DNA from: Rubrivivax gelatinosus
GTDB lineage: Bacteria; Pseudomonadota; Gammaproteobacteria; Burkholderiales; Burkholderiaceae_C
Length of the DNA: 64,000 nucleotides
Direction: 5' to 3'
Assembly: GCF_004340905.1 (NCBI RefSeq)
Contig: NZ_SLXD01000001.1
Span: forward strand, 558,001 to 622,000
The stretch's first letter is position 1. Each line of letters opens with the position of its first letter. Below the pieces are notes generated by a model that searched no databases, had not been told where the DNA came from, and worked only from the letters and a program-made list of their open reading frames with translations. Positions 21,278 through 63,700 of the stretch are shown here, piece after piece. The translations under genes were made by a program, and so were the position numbers.

Positions 21278-21289
21278 TGGTTGCGGGGG
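21278..21289. other. Left attachment repeat (attL core)
   Basis: TGGTTGCGGGGG, identical to the first 12 bases of the tRNA-fMet gene read on the plus strand at 61860-61871 (minus-strand CCCCCGCAACCA). Chromosomal sequence lies to its left and phage sequence to its right. Confidence 0.8.
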
Positions 21290-21369: not shown

Positions 21370-21399
21370 TTGCCGGCGCGCGCGCCGACTGGATACACT
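21370..21399 (+). promoter_or_regulatory. Promoter of the Rha cassette with shared operator-like octamer
   Basis: TTGCCG (21370-21375) and TACACT (21394-21399) are 18 bases apart. The -10 region lies within GGATACAC (21391-21398). The same pair at the same spacing precedes the KilA-N cassette, and GGATACAC recurs twice in the repressor control region near 47.86 kb. Confidence 0.55.
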
Positions 21400-21454
21400 G
21401 TGTGTACCGCTGAAAGGCGGCCGGGATTGGCGTCCCGGTGCACCTGCGGCGAAG

Positions 21455-21484
21455 GCCGCACACCGCACGTCGTGCGGCTTTTTT
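21455..21484 (+). terminator. Terminator or attenuator inside the Rha leader
   Basis: A 7-bp stem (GCCGCAC with GTGCGGC) followed by six T residues stands between the promoter and the antirepressor gene. The equivalent hairpin in the second cassette has only a TTTAT tail. Confidence 0.6.
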
Positions 21485-21492
21485 CATTGCCT

Positions 21493-21589
21493 GGACCGCT
21501 CAATGGTGGCCCTGGCGGGGAGCCGCAAGGCTCGCCGGTTCCGTCCGCGGGTGCCCGGTACGCCAACCCGTCAGGGCTGCCGCCCCTTC
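21493..21589 (+). ncRNA. C4-like antisense RNA in the Rha leader
   Basis: This segment resembles the C4 antisense RNA of phages P1 and P7, which is cut from the leader of the antirepressor transcript and pairs with that same message. It has a GAGCC-GCAA-GGCTC hairpin and two single-stranded blocks: a' CGCCAA (21561-21566) and b' CTGCCGCCCC (21577-21586). Their complements a TTGGCG (21590-21595) and b GGGGTGGCAG (21599-21608) lie just before the ribosome binding site. A further copy of TTGGCG fills the loop of a perfect 6-bp hairpin at 21421-21438. The match to the C4 family is from memory; the complementarity is seen directly. Confidence 0.7.
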
Positions 21590-21637
21590 TTGGCGTTCGG
21601 GGTGGCAGTTGGCTCAACTGCACCCACGGAGGCCATC

Positions 21638-22240
21638 ATGGCTGACACCCCTCTCATCGCGACCGCCGAGGTCGCCCTCCCCCTTCTCCGCATCGCCGAT
21701 GGCCAGGCCACGGCCACCAGCCTGCAGATCGCCGAGCACTTCGGCAAGCGGCATGGTGATGTGATCCGTGCCGTCCGAAAGCTGGACTGCCCGCCGGAGT
21801 TCAGCCGACGCAATTTTGCGTCGGCGAAATATCTGGACGAACAGGGAAAGCCGCGCGACTGCTACCACGTCACCCGCGACGGCTTCTCCCTGCTGGCCAT
21901 GGGCTTCACGGGCAAGGAAGCGATGCGGTGGAAGCTGGCCTACATCGCCGCCTTCAACGCCATGGAGGCCCAACTGCGGGCGCTGTACGTGGCGCCGCTG
22001 GTCTGCGAGAAGGAGTTCCGCGACGGCATCAAGCTGCGCGACAAGCTGGTGCTGATGGAGCAGAGCCACAAGACGATGCGGCAACTGCGCGCCGAGGCGG
22101 ACCCGGCGGTGCAGCGCAACCTGTACTGGCAGCTCCGCCAGATCAACGAGACGCTGGGCATCCCCACCGAGGCGGCCGGCACGCTGCTGGGCGCCGCAGC
22201 CCCCGCTCTGCTGGCAGGCCAGGAAGGCGGTGCCCAATGA
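21638..22240 (+). CDS. Rha-family antirepressor/regulatory protein
   Basis: 200 residues. The N-terminal 110 residues match the phage Rha family (TSLQIAEHFGKRHGDVIRAVRKLDC, TRDGFSLLAMGFTGKEAMRWKLAYIAAFNAME), a DNA-binding module linked to antirepression. The C-terminal part (EQSHKTMRQLRAEADPAVQRNLY) shares a segment with the KilA-N protein of the second cassette. CACGGAGGCC supplies the ribosome binding site 3 bases before the ATG, and it is the presumed target of the antisense RNA. The stop overlaps the next gene by ATGA. Confidence 0.85.
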   Translation: MADTPLIATAEVALPLLRIADGQATATSLQIAEHFGKRHGDVIRAVRKLDCPPEFSRRNFASAKYLDEQGKPRDCYHVTRDGFSLLAMGFTGKEAMRWKLAYIAAFNAMEAQLRALYVAPLVCEKEFRDGIKLRDKLVLMEQSHKTMRQLRAEADPAVQRNLYWQLRQINETLGIPTEAAGTLLGAAAPALLAGQEGGAQ

Positions 22241-22452
22241 GACCCGCACCTGGCATGACGCGGCCGATGCTGCCCTACCCCCAGCTGCTGACCCTGCTCG
22301 ACGAGGCCGAGGTCGGCCTGGCCGGGCTGCTGGATCTGCTGGACAAGGCTGGCAACGCCAAGGCCGACTGCACGCAGCTCGCCTACCTGATCCGGCCCTT
22401 CCACCAGAAGATCGCCGCCGCCACCAACGACCTGCACGACATGAAGGTCTGA
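22237..22452 (+). CDS. Small helical protein, copy 1 (unknown function)
   Basis: 71 residues, almost wholly helical with a Leu-rich start (LLTLLDEAEVGLAGLLDLLDKAG) and one Cys. A second copy at 24573-24788 differs at only three positions. Each copy is coupled by an ATGA overlap to an antirepressor-type gene and followed by a terminator, so it probably acts together with that protein. I do not recognise a named family. Confidence 0.75.
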   Translation: MRPAPGMTRPMLPYPQLLTLLDEAEVGLAGLLDLLDKAGNAKADCTQLAYLIRPFHQKIAAATNDLHDMKV

Positions 22453-22470
22453 CGCCGCAAGGCAGCCACC

Positions 22471-22494
22471 AAGGGCCCCACACGGGGCCCTTTT
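22471..22494 (+). terminator. Terminator of the Rha cassette
   Basis: GGGCCCC and GGGGCCC form a 7-bp stem with the loop ACAC, followed by TTTTCAT. Confidence 0.85.
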
Positions 22495-23464
22495 CATATC
22501 CAGGCGCCGCCACAGCGGCCGAAGTCGACCGCCGATCGTCAACAGGGCGCCGACTTCCCAAGCCAGCCCGCCGTAGCCCCTCCGGCCGGCCGTGAGGTCG
22601 TCCCCCGAGAGGGCCTCGTAGCGAGGTCTCGCAAGTGGGTGCAAGCACGCTGCGCCTTTCGCTCGTTCGCAGCACCGGAGCAGGCTCCAGGCACGCCATG
22701 ATGAGTGCAGTTCTCTGTGGTTCTGGTGGGTGTCGGGAGAGGCATAACATCCCTAATCGGTGGATATACGCTCATCGGAAAGCGCTACAGCGACAGTCAC
22801 TTAGCTCGCATTGTTGAGATATAACATTTACATAACATACCCATTACCTAGTTATACCGACGAGTACTCACCAGCCACCAAGAAAAATCCATTTCAGATC
22901 AACAACTTAGCGAGCGGTTATGTTTCAGGTTAGGTCGGATTAGCCCCTCAACATAATCAGCAAATCATCGAAGAATCAAAGACTTAGGACGCCTTGGCGG
23001 GCGCAGTGAGGTCGGTTAGGTCGTCCCCGAGTGCCGCCCCGGATCGCTTCTCGACCGTCCGGTTGCACACCCTGGCCGGTCGGCAGCACCGGGAGGCCCA
23101 TGCGGCATGCGGAAGCCGTCGTTTCCCGTCGCCGCGAAGGGGGTGGAAAGCGCATCTAAGTGCCCGCCGCCGCACTTTTTTTCACTGCTCGTCGGCGCCG
23201 TCGAAAGGGACACACGAAGCGAGAGGGCGGGGCGGGGTCCCGAGCGCGCGCTGCGGGGTGTGACCGCCCCGCCTACCGCTTGATGCACCGGGCTGGTGCG
23301 ACCGGCGAGCGGGCGGCGAGGCGGCGACGGTTGCCCCCGCGCGCGGCGCGGCGAACGCTGTGGGCGATGCGGGGACTTCCGCATCGGGGTACGCCCGCCG
23401 CCGCGCGGCACGGCGGCAGCAGCACGGCCTCCGGATCAAGCTGCTCCTAAGCGAGCCGGGGCGC
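22495..23464. other. Non-coding region with an AT-rich island between the two cassettes
   Basis: No gene is supported here. From about 22740 to 22985 base composition drops sharply: 22801-22860 has 20 G or C of 60. This island carries TAACAT three times (22745, 22822, 22833), TTATGTT at 22918-22924 and its complement AACATAA at 22950-22956, plus GTGGATATAC near 22760. From 22985 on the sequence is GC-rich again. It might be an operator array, a replication origin or imported DNA. Confidence 0.5.
23158..23182 (+). terminator. Possible terminator without an upstream gene
   Basis: AAGTGC and GCACTT form a 6-bp stem with an 8-base loop; the T-run reaches seven bases. No coding region lies before it, so it could end a short untranslated transcript starting in the AT-rich island. 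Confidence 0.4.
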
Positions 23465-23494
23465 TTGCCGCGCCGTGCGCCGAGTGGATACACT
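23465..23494 (+). promoter_or_regulatory. Promoter of the KilA-N cassette with shared operator-like octamer
   Basis: TTGCCG (23465-23470) and TACACT (23489-23494) at 18-base spacing, identical in sequence and spacing to the Rha cassette promoter although the spacer differs. It contains AGTGGATACACTGTG. Confidence 0.55.
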
Positions 23495-23585
23495 GTGCTC
23501 GCCGCTGAAGAAGCGGCCGGGCGTGGAACCCCGTAGCACCCGCGGCGAAAGCCGCACGCCGCATGCCGTGCGGCTTTATCGTTTC

Positions 23586-23683
23586 GGACCGCTCAATGGC
23601 GGCCCTGGCGGGGAGCCGCAAGGCTCGCCGGTTCCGCTCCGCGGGTGCCCGGTAGTTCCAACCCGTCAGGGCTGCCGCCCTTC
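23586..23683 (+). ncRNA. C4-like antisense RNA in the KilA-N leader
   Basis: This is the paralogue of the leader RNA at 21493. The backbone GGACCGCTCAATGG and the GAGCC-GCAA-GGCTC hairpin are conserved, but the pairing blocks have changed together. Here a' is GTTCCAA (23655-23661) and its complement a is TTGGAAC (23686-23692). Block b' CTGCCGCCC (23672-23680) pairs perfectly with GGGCGGCAG (23696-23704), where copy 1 has a G-U pair. An upstream hairpin at 23518-23533 again presents TGGAAC in its loop. Confidence 0.7.
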
Positions 23684-23733
23684 GTTTGGAACCGTGGGCG
23701 GCAGTTGACTCAACTGCACCCACGGAGGCCACG

Positions 23734-24576
23734 ATGGCACCCCTTCCCGCTCGCGCCACTCCCTTCATCCTCGAAGACACCTACGTCCGGCAAGATGAGC
23801 AAGGCCGCTACTCCCTCAACGATCTCCACGTAGCAGCTGGCGGCCAACCTCGGCACCAGCCGAGCAACTGGCTGCGCACGGCTCAGGCGCAGGAGCTCGC
23901 CGCGGCCGCGAGCAATTCCTCAGATTCGAGGAATTGCCCATCGATCTCCTCGGTGCAGCAACGCGGGACCTTTGTCGTCCGTGACCTGGTCTACGCCTAC
24001 GCGATGTGGATCAGCCCAGAGTTCCACCTGAAGGTCATCCGCACCTTCGACGCCGTCGTCACCGGCCGCCTGTCGCCGGCTGCCGAGCCCGTCGGCGCCG
24101 TCTCCGGCCTGCCGGCCGCCAAGCTGATCAGCCTGCAGAACCAGAGCTGGTCACTGATCCAGCGGCTGCGCGCCGAGCGCGACCCCGAGCTGCGACGCGC
24201 GCTCTACGCGCAGCTGGCTGTCGTCATGGGCGACCTCGGCCAGGCGGCGCCGGCGCTGGAGAACATCGGCCGCGATGCCCCGGCCGTGCCGGCGGTCGTT
24301 GCCGACTTCTGGAAGGTCTACGTCCAGCTCGAGGCGAAGGGCGTGCGGCTGAACCACCACCGCAACCCGTCGCTCATCGCCGTGAACCTGCGCCACTTCG
24401 TCAAGGCCGCGGCCGAGCACAAGCTGCGTGCACCCCTGGCGCAGGCGCTGCGCGACAGCCTGAGGCTGAGTCGCGCGCCGCGCTTCGTCGACGCTCGCAA
24501 CGTCAAGAGCGGGCTGCTCGGCACGGCGATCTTCTGCTGGGTCTTCGAGGCCGAGCCGGAAGGCGGTGCGCAATGA
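23734..24576 (+). CDS. KilA-N domain antirepressor-like protein
   Basis: 280 residues. Residues 1-110 form a KilA-N DNA-binding domain (YSLNDLHVAAGG, QPSNWLRTAQAQEL, TFVVRDLVYAYAMWISPEFHLKVIRTFD). Next comes a segment shared with the Rha protein (QSWSLIQRLRAERDPELRRALY). The last 90 residues (VADFWKVYVQLEAKG to FVDARNVKSG and FCWVFEAE) match the C-terminus of the prophage primase/helicase. The first ATG after CACGGAGGCC is taken. P1 Ant also belongs to this antirepressor group. The stop overlaps the next gene by ATGA. Confidence 0.85.
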   Translation: MAPLPARATPFILEDTYVRQDEQGRYSLNDLHVAAGGQPRHQPSNWLRTAQAQELAAAASNSSDSRNCPSISSVQQRGTFVVRDLVYAYAMWISPEFHLKVIRTFDAVVTGRLSPAAEPVGAVSGLPAAKLISLQNQSWSLIQRLRAERDPELRRALYAQLAVVMGDLGQAAPALENIGRDAPAVPAVVADFWKVYVQLEAKGVRLNHHRNPSLIAVNLRHFVKAAAEHKLRAPLAQALRDSLRLSRAPRFVDARNVKSGLLGTAIFCWVFEAEPEGGAQ

Positions 24577-24788
24577 GGCCCGCACCTGCCATGACGCGGC
24601 CGATGCTGCCATACCCCCAGCTGCTTGATCTGCTCGACGAGGCCGAGGTCGGCCTGGCCGGTCTGCTGGACCTGCTGGACAAGGCCGGCAACGCCAAGGC
24701 GGACTGCACGCAGCTCGCCCACCTGATCCGGCCCTTCCATCAGAAGATCGCCGCCGCCACCAACGACCTGCACGACATGAAGGTCTGA
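24573..24788 (+). CDS. Small helical protein, copy 2 (unknown function)
   Basis: 71 residues, differing from copy 1 at positions 6 (Ala for Gly), 19 (Asp for Thr) and 50 (His for Tyr). The DNA is also nearly identical, so the duplication is recent or the copies are kept alike by conversion, whereas the adjacent antirepressors are unrelated at their N-termini. Confidence 0.75.
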   Translation: MRPAPAMTRPMLPYPQLLDLLDEAEVGLAGLLDLLDKAGNAKADCTQLAHLIRPFHQKIAAATNDLHDMKV

Positions 24789-60291: not shown

Positions 60292-61936
<1,645 letters not shown>

Positions 61937-63553: not shown

Positions 63554-63700
63554 GGCGCGTTCCTTCTTTGGTTATGACACCCCGGCCGTGTCAGGTACCG
63601 AGGCTGGACCGGGCCCCAAAGGCCCTTACGACACCGCGGCTCCCGTCACCGGGAGCCGCAGCGGTTTCTTGCAGCGGGGGCCGCGCGCGGCCCCGCGATC

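Follow-up and report, generated by a model that had tools for sequence, protein, structure and literature searches.

Two C4-type antisense leaders with matched, differing a' codes in one prophage of Rubrivivax gelatinosus

C4 is a classic antisense RNA, known by experiment mainly from phages P1 and P7. A stretch of 64,000 nucleotides (nt) of the Rubrivivax gelatinosus genome (contig NZ_SLXD01000001.1, positions 558,001 to 622,000 of the forward strand; here called the window and numbered from its first letter) contains two leaders of this type, 2.1 kb apart in a single prophage. Does one prophage carry two C4 switches, each with its own address? We think that it does, with a probability of roughly 0.7: each cassette would be a C4-type immunity operon of its own, made up of a terminated leader, an antisense RNA and a target gene.

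The C4 leaders and their pairing blocks

A search with the Rfam C4 model (RF01695), which the original prediction had proposed as a check on its C4 assignment, returned both copies well above the gathering cut-off. They are the only C4 matches found in their own genome (150 of the 3136 first-look candidates were scored). The blocks in question, written a1, b1, a', b', a2 and b2, are as follows.

21421-21438, + strand: a1 hairpin of copy 1, perfect 6-bp stem
21427-21433, + strand: a1 of copy 1, TTGGCGT, in the loop of the a1 hairpin
21440-21449, + strand: b1 of copy 1, GCACCTGCGG, pairs with b' with one G-U
21499-21587, + strand: C4 antisense RNA, copy 1 (RF01695, 61.5 bits, gathering cut-off 45)
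21545-21554, + strand: b' of copy 1, CCGCGGGTGC
21560-21566, + strand: a' of copy 1, ACGCCAA
21590-21596, + strand: a2 of copy 1, TTGGCGT
21620-21632, + strand: b2 of copy 1, GCACCC (21620-21625), then Shine-Dalgarno GGAGG (21628-21632) of the rha-type gene
23518-23533, + strand: a1 hairpin of copy 2, 4-bp stem
23524-23529, + strand: a1 of copy 2, TGGAAC (6 nt), in the loop of the a1 hairpin
23536-23545, + strand: b1 of copy 2, GCACCCGCGG, 10 pairs with b', G-C replacing G-U
23592-23682, + strand: C4 antisense RNA, copy 2 (RF01695, 63.2 bits, gathering cut-off 45)
23639-23648, + strand: b' of copy 2, identical to that of copy 1
23655-23661, + strand: a' of copy 2, GTTCCAA
23686-23692, + strand: a2 of copy 2, TTGGAAC
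23716-23728, + strand: b2 of copy 2, GCACCC (23716-23721), then Shine-Dalgarno GGAGG (23724-23728) of the kilA-N-type gene

In each leader a' is complementary to its own a1 and a2, and b' to b1 and b2. The complementary blocks and hairpin loops that had been predicted are all in place in both copies, and the two leaders are much alike, as the prediction of a common backbone implied. The predicted change from a G-U to a G-C pair fits b1, which has U at 21445 in copy 1 and C at 23541 in copy 2. Minimum-energy folding gives both copies the form typical of C4: two hairpins are enclosed by a long closing stem, P1, a' lies unpaired between P3 and P1, and b' lies within P3. On these sequence grounds two genuine C4 cassettes with matched, differing a' codes are confirmed in the window. 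The start of stem P1, read by eye against the RNase P site GGW, is GGT in copy 1 and GGC in copy 2; two Acinetobacter baumannii RNAs have GGC at this position (PMC5320573).

The same order of a1, b1, C4, a2, b2 and gene is found in the c4-icd-ant operon of P1 and P7, which belongs to the same Rfam family. The P1 record lists a1, b1, c4, a2 and b2, followed by icd and ant1, and marks a1 and b1 as 'putative' target sites. The window differs from P1 and P7 in having two operons with different a' in one prophage, and from the P1 immI operon in that no icd intervenes: a gene of the Rha or KilA-N type follows C4 directly.

It had been predicted that each antisense RNA recognises its own message. For the a' arm the computed energies agree, pairing of a' with a2 giving -10.4 and -8.9 kcal/mol for the own partners and -3.7 and -2.9 for the crossed ones. 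For the b' arm the prediction is not supported, as b' is identical in both copies and gives -19.8 kcal/mol on b2 in every combination. Cross-silencing is thus possible, and one may suppose that either C4 silences both genes and that a' differs through drift or as a fine adjustment, without separate specificity. We consider such shared control possible but doubtful. It would suit the sameness of b' and b2 in the two cassettes, an energy of the b'-b2 pairing well beyond the -8.9 to -10.4 of a' with a2, and the ability of the copy 1 C4 to pair out of register with the a1 hairpin of copy 2 (-10.2). The published comparison of P1 with P7 speaks against it: a difference of 4 nt reportedly suffices to limit cross-reaction, a' being the specificity arm (PMC5320573). 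By analogy with these four bases, separate specificity of the two window copies is likely. In addition, a' varies and yet stays matched to both of its targets in 155 of the 206 loci described below, which is unlikely if a' is irrelevant.

The a' code in other genomes

The survey for C4 covered three sets of genomes: 48 of 399 from the family, 55 of 399 from the order and 24 of 369 from the class were positive, which by handle makes 121 distinct genomes; part of the matches were fetched. From 106 genomes, 225 distinct C4 records were oriented, and the 206 with a clean a' form the set of parsed loci. Records without a clean a' fold were left out (13 of 173 in the first pass, 19 of 225 in the second), and eight loci gave no match to the first profile. 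As a control, leaders were shuffled among loci 200 times, a swap that keeps composition and position and does not keep descent; the loci include relatives and hence are not independent.

A match of 7 nt or more links a' to its own a2 in 167 of the 206 loci (swap mean 14.7, maximum 24) and to its own a1 in 182 (swap mean 17.5, maximum 29). The b' block matches its own b2 in 148 and its own b1 in 154 loci, compared with swap means of 9.3 and 11.5 and maxima of 17 and 19. A stem of at least four pairs flanks a1 in 133 of 181 loci (7% with shuffled flanks). There are 60 distinct a' 7-mers, and among related leaders (identity 0.87 to 0.97 outside the a blocks) 69 of 96 pairs have different a' blocks, even though a new code calls for changes at three places, a', a1 and a2. 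The a' code, matched within its own leader far above the swaps, is therefore real as a feature of these sequences. The concerted change between the two window copies, put forward in the original prediction as evidence of pairing, is an instance of a family rule, and the code can now be read across 206 loci and 60 a' variants.

The variability of a' has been read differently in A. baumannii, where many C4-like small RNAs with varied a' occur in one genome. There host targets were proposed, and targets in the RNAs' own leaders were not considered in the available text (PMC5320573). The same wide variation, with its 60 distinct 7-mers, is the basis of those authors' case and could be turned to the present RNAs, which would then have drifted to host mRNAs. 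Judged from the C4 leaders, this has only a very slight chance of being right: in 194 of the 206 loci a' is matched over 7 nt by a1 or a2 of the same leader, and in the 155 already mentioned by both.

Two further ideas on how a' varies were tried and rejected. The first was that cassettes within one genome avoid sharing a'. A Fisher test looked strong at leader identity of at least 0.83 (a' shared in 16 of 69 pairs within genomes versus 117 of 234 between), and at 0.80 or above sharing was lower within than between genomes in 12 genomes and higher in 4. When labels were shuffled inside groups of related leaders, 866 of 2000 shuffles lay at or below the observed value at 0.83 or above, 548 of 2000 at 0.80 or above and 1227 of 2000 at 0.85 or above, which removes the effect. 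An unmatched test pointed rather to an excess of sharing: a' was the same in 53 of 231 pairs against a permutation mean of 0.184, and 1832 of 2000 shuffles did not exceed the observed value. Both a' and b' are the same in 1 of 96 co-resident pairs and in 3 of 399 other related pairs; the fraction gave 0 of 2000 shuffles at or below, which is an artefact, because one pair is unbreakable and the number of pairs changes, and the count itself was 1, as observed, in 1896 of 2000 shuffles. Co-resident cassettes thus do not demonstrably avoid a shared a' once relatedness is controlled for. Separately, related C4 leaders co-occur in a genome much more frequently than under label shuffles, with 96 within-genome pairs compared with a shuffle mean of 38.

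The second rejected idea was that a' changes faster than the rest of the leader. It holds only in close pairs (identity 0.87 to 0.97, a blocks 0.82 to 0.88). At 0.82 to 0.87 it fails: the a blocks (0.824) are not less similar than the rest, and 102 of 158 pairs have unlike a'. At 0.75 to 0.82 the a blocks are more similar than the rest (0.900), with unlike a' in 29 of 54 pairs. These block identities rest on pairwise alignment that is sometimes off. Column entropies over a' are 1.58, 1.48, 1.26, 0.86, 0.86, 0.21 and 0.42, which lie within the range of the other C4 columns (mean 1.04, maximum 1.94). We make no claim of positive selection on a'.

Two tandem copies with separate specificity in one prophage had been expected to be unusual. 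Cassettes close together are uncommon, and they are not unique: same-strand C4 matches within 10 kb of each other occur in 8 of the 121 C4-positive genomes, a count in which short contigs can hide more cases and for which a common prophage of both members was examined in the window only. The genomes, besides that of the window, are these.

G215: codes ACGCCAA and AGTCCAA
G513: codes CTGCTAA and CCGCCAA
G529: codes CTTCCAA and CGTCCAA, b' also different
G674: one copy with a matched a1 and without a2, the other copy decayed
G1015: codes CTGCGAA and CTCTCAA
G1044 (L209, contig C9, 1700-3091): four C4 leaders in 1.4 kb
G1149: codes ACGCCAA and CCGCCAA, matches of 6 nt or with an imperfect a2, the code of L203 not fully matched

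All four leaders of G1044 score above the Rfam cut-off, and their four a' blocks all differ, each finding a match of 7 or 8 nt in the a1 and in the a2 of its own leader; three of the four have b' in common. One more genome (G647, locus L103) has two C4 leaders 16 kb apart with the same a' and a1 and a different b'; no matching a2 was found in the stretch searched, and the pair is not counted as tandem. Tandem sets with different codes were not found in the literature searched, which did not extend to subscription journals. The C4 family itself is known. Such sets offer material for testing how small a difference in bases keeps two immunity systems apart in the same cell.

The IsrK-like leader upstream of C4

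Beyond what had been predicted, a terminated leader resembling the IsrK RNA lies directly 5' of C4 in both copies and ends at a terminator-like hairpin.

21370-21399, + strand: promoter-like hexamers TTGCCG-18-TACACT, copy 1, putative, from reading the sequence
21393-21441: c4-a1b1 (RF03163), 20.1 bits, relaxed threshold, gathering score 46.7
21404-21484, + strand: IsrK-like leader of copy 1 with a1, b1, hairpin and terminator (RF01394, 36.5 bits, E 1.7e-5)
21445-21460, + strand: antiterminator-like hairpin TGCGGC-GAAG-GCCGCA of copy 1, overlapping b1, from folding
21463-21484, + strand: terminator-like hairpin and T-run of copy 1, between b1 and C4 (stem 21463-21477, with a longer alternative stem)
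23465-23494, + strand: promoter-like hexamers TTGCCG-18-TACACT, copy 2, putative, from reading the sequence
23488-23537: c4-a1b1 (RF03163), 29.9 bits, relaxed threshold, gathering score 46.7
23501-23580, + strand: IsrK-like leader of copy 2 (RF01394, 29.1 bits, E 0.0013)
23558-23584, + strand: terminator-like hairpin with a weak T-rich tail, copy 2 (stem 23558-23574)

Among 20 relatives, picked from loci with C4 on the + strand, 16 have an isrK match (E <= 0.01) just 5' of C4, two of them above the cut-off. Of 204 loci, 135 have a terminator-like hairpin with a T-run in the interval from b1 to C4, against 31.7% in shuffles. In phage P1 the isrK model falls on the a1/b1 region with 35.1 bits, below its cut-off.

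The layout is the same in Gifsy-1, where isrK scores 79.3 bits and a C4 match of 69 bits follows 25 nt later. The region in question, orf45/STnc1160 (NC_010392, 34131-34316, - strand), scores as C4 and has a2 after it; in operon coordinates a1 is at 26-32, C4 at 103-186, a' at 157-164 and a2 at 192-198. At all 12 published positions that were checked, the sequence has the letter expected. G28 and G31 belong to a1, and C159 and C162 to a', so that the published complementary mutant pairs G28A/C162U and G31A/C159U (PMC4825925) join a1 to a'. Like the window cassettes, the isrK-orf45-anrP operon has a short leader before a terminator and an antirepressor-like gene; for this operon a short RNA, which activates in trans, and a read-through mRNA have been shown (PMC4825925). 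It differs in being a single cassette. A processed RNA, STnc1160, lies 3' of IsrK and was likened to the CI RNA of phage P4, and its authors suggested that IsrK may bind and inactivate it; at the place of C4 they described a 45-aa open reading frame (ORF), orf45 (PMC4825925). That STnc1160 would be a C4 RNA is an addition of the present reading; the terms 'C4 RNA' and 'phage P1' are absent from the available text of that paper. A table of Rfam hits in Xylella has IsrK and C4 antisense side by side (PMC12189769), and c4 antisense RNA and c4-a1b1 are listed in a table of PMC2864571. No other paper naming both IsrK and C4 antisense, and none equating IsrK with the a1/b1 leader of C4 operons, was found in the literature searched.

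For this prophage we infer expression, processing, decoy action and separate specificity along the following lines. A promoter just upstream would drive transcription through a1 and b1. Part of the transcripts would end at the terminator before C4, giving a short IsrK-like RNA, and the remainder would read through into C4, a2, b2 and the gene. C4 would be excised (by RNase P in phage P1) and would pair in trans, a' with a2 and b' with b2, masking the Shine-Dalgarno region, whereby the Rha-type or KilA-N-type protein would not be made in the lysogen. The short leader RNA, having the target copies a1 and b1, could bind C4 and lift the block. The differing a' would set the two switches apart, with some cross-silencing through the common b'. 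The probable products of each cassette are a short decoy, an antisense repressor and the target of that repressor. If IsrK is tied to the a1/b1 leader, the 'putative' P1 sites gain a possible role, and the short RNA should act as a decoy for C4. Much more tentatively, C4, c4-a1b1 and IsrK may be pieces of one three-part switch with dozens of interchangeable codes, which prophages assemble into tandem arrays (two here, four in G1044). If so, several antirepressors could be triggered independently, or by matching decoys from another phage.

Several observations weigh against this scheme. A promoter scan of the window leaders gave no consensus promoter, the terminator tail of copy 2 is weak, and both leaders fall below the gathering scores of isrK (50) and c4-a1b1 (46.7). 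Most of the pairing energy, moreover, is carried by the common b'. In Gifsy-1, constitutive orf45 strengthened the growth arrest mediated by IsrK, and an early stop codon in orf45 lowered activation, for which the authors invoked translational coupling (PMC4825925); both results speak against plain titration of C4 there. Translation of an orf45-type frame was considered as a conserved coding feature and rejected: 127 of 206 C4s have an early ATG, in only 21 does the frame end near the next start (18 and 19 for the other two frames), and copy 2 has a stop codon inside C4.

The hairpins of the leader also invite a different mode of action, in which C4, bound to a1 and b1, would open the antiterminator, let the leader terminator form and in this way restrict the operon that encodes it. 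The same action has been described for the P4 CI RNA, and the Gifsy-1 authors raised the possibility for STnc1160 (PMC4825925). The CI RNA resembles C4 in lying as an antisense RNA between two complementary sites (seqA and seqC) of its own transcript, and differs in acting through transcription termination (PMC4825925; compared by description only). In copy 1 the antiterminator-like hairpin has a probability of 0.96 in the nascent RNA and 0.03 with the complete terminator. Of 147 loci examined, 113 have a second hairpin (folding free energy, dG, <= -3), and in 82 of these it starts within the final two or three bases of b1. With dG <= -5, a hairpin is found at the 3' edge of b1 in 69% of the 147 loci (15% in shuffles), and 43 distinct arm pairs occur among such hairpins. 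A set of 97 loci was selected for the presence of a terminator, a1 and b1; in 89 of them the b1-edge hairpin overlaps the 5' arm of the terminator (59% in shuffles). When a1 and b1 are blocked in these 97 loci, terminator probability rises by more than 0.05 in 38 and falls in 5, whereas single shifted control blocks give 15 up and 16 down. However, b1 and the hairpin share a median of 2 nt, and in copy 1 the terminator is favoured anyway (0.97 to 1.00; 0.71 to 1.00 in copy 2). In phage P1 its probability goes from 0.50 to 0.43 with both sites blocked and to 0.67 with b1 alone blocked. Constitutive STnc1160, moreover, did not stop IsrK action in Gifsy-1 (PMC4825925). Since the hairpin layout is attenuator-like but the folding evidence is mixed, we keep attenuation as a rival or an addition to the decoy scheme, and think it rather unlikely.

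Cassette genes and the host prophage

21278-61871: host prophage, flanked by the 12-bp direct repeat TGGTTGCGGGGG, from which its ends are inferred
21638-22240, + strand: Rha-type antirepressor/regulator gene (Pfam PF09669, Phage_pRha, E 2.1e-29; PHROG 518, E 1e-44)
22237-22452, + strand: first 71-aa ORF, overlapping the rha stop (ATGA)
23734-24576, + strand: KilA-N-type antirepressor/regulator gene (Pfam PF04383, E 4e-20; PHROG 129, E 1.4e-38)
24573-24788, + strand: second 71-aa ORF, overlapping the kilA-N stop (ATGA)

By their Rha and KilA-N domains the genes 3' of both C4s are of antirepressor type. A simple start-codon rule found a first ORF 3' of C4 at 100 of 112 examined C4s (median 103 aa), and in a family scan of 89 first ORFs, Bro-N, Phage_pRha, AntA, KilA-N, P22_AR_N and ORF6N together account for at most 15. 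Unlike the window, most cassettes therefore have a short ORF without a domain of this kind after C4. In G1015 the genes, assigned by eye, are one of Rha type and one of P22_AR_N type; both models were present in the family scan.

The two 71-aa ORFs are nearly identical to each other, behind genes of unrelated families. They have no family in Pfam or PHROG and no relative in the genome contigs collection searched; among viral contigs the only match is a contig with the same prophage, and the second ORF gave no alignment with Icd. In a collection of phages, two partial matches to the first cassette cover 24% and 8% of the query. With leaders much alike, 71-aa ORFs nearly identical and differing genes between them, the cassette frame appears to have been duplicated or exchanged while its middle differs. 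The near-identity of leaders and 71-aa ORFs, which points to a common origin of the cassettes, could also mean that the second is a decaying duplicate without function, and a decayed copy does stand beside an intact one in another genome (L101). We think this improbable, as both window leaders have matched blocks, Shine-Dalgarno sites and full-length ORFs, and the enclosed genes come from different families.

The repeat TGGTTGCGGGGG starts at 21278 and 61860, the latter in the end of a tRNA gene, and encloses genes for portal, terminase, scaffold, capsid, baseplate, tape measure, tail and integrase. The gene order is that of a prophage which we take to be P2-like. The cassettes lie between the left repeat and the portal gene, and a 40,734-base IMG/VR contig carries the same stretch. 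At 60292-61881 the integrase gene lies beside the tRNA gene; in PHROGs it further matches a family of DNA invertases (E 7.8e-19). Between the cassettes, an A+T-rich stretch (22750-22990) has 42.7% G+C compared with 71% over the window, below every one of 1276 windows of the same size, and is a possible insertion. At 63577-63625 (- strand) the model of the L17 ribosomal protein leader matches weakly (36.4 bits versus 34.9, E 0.16).

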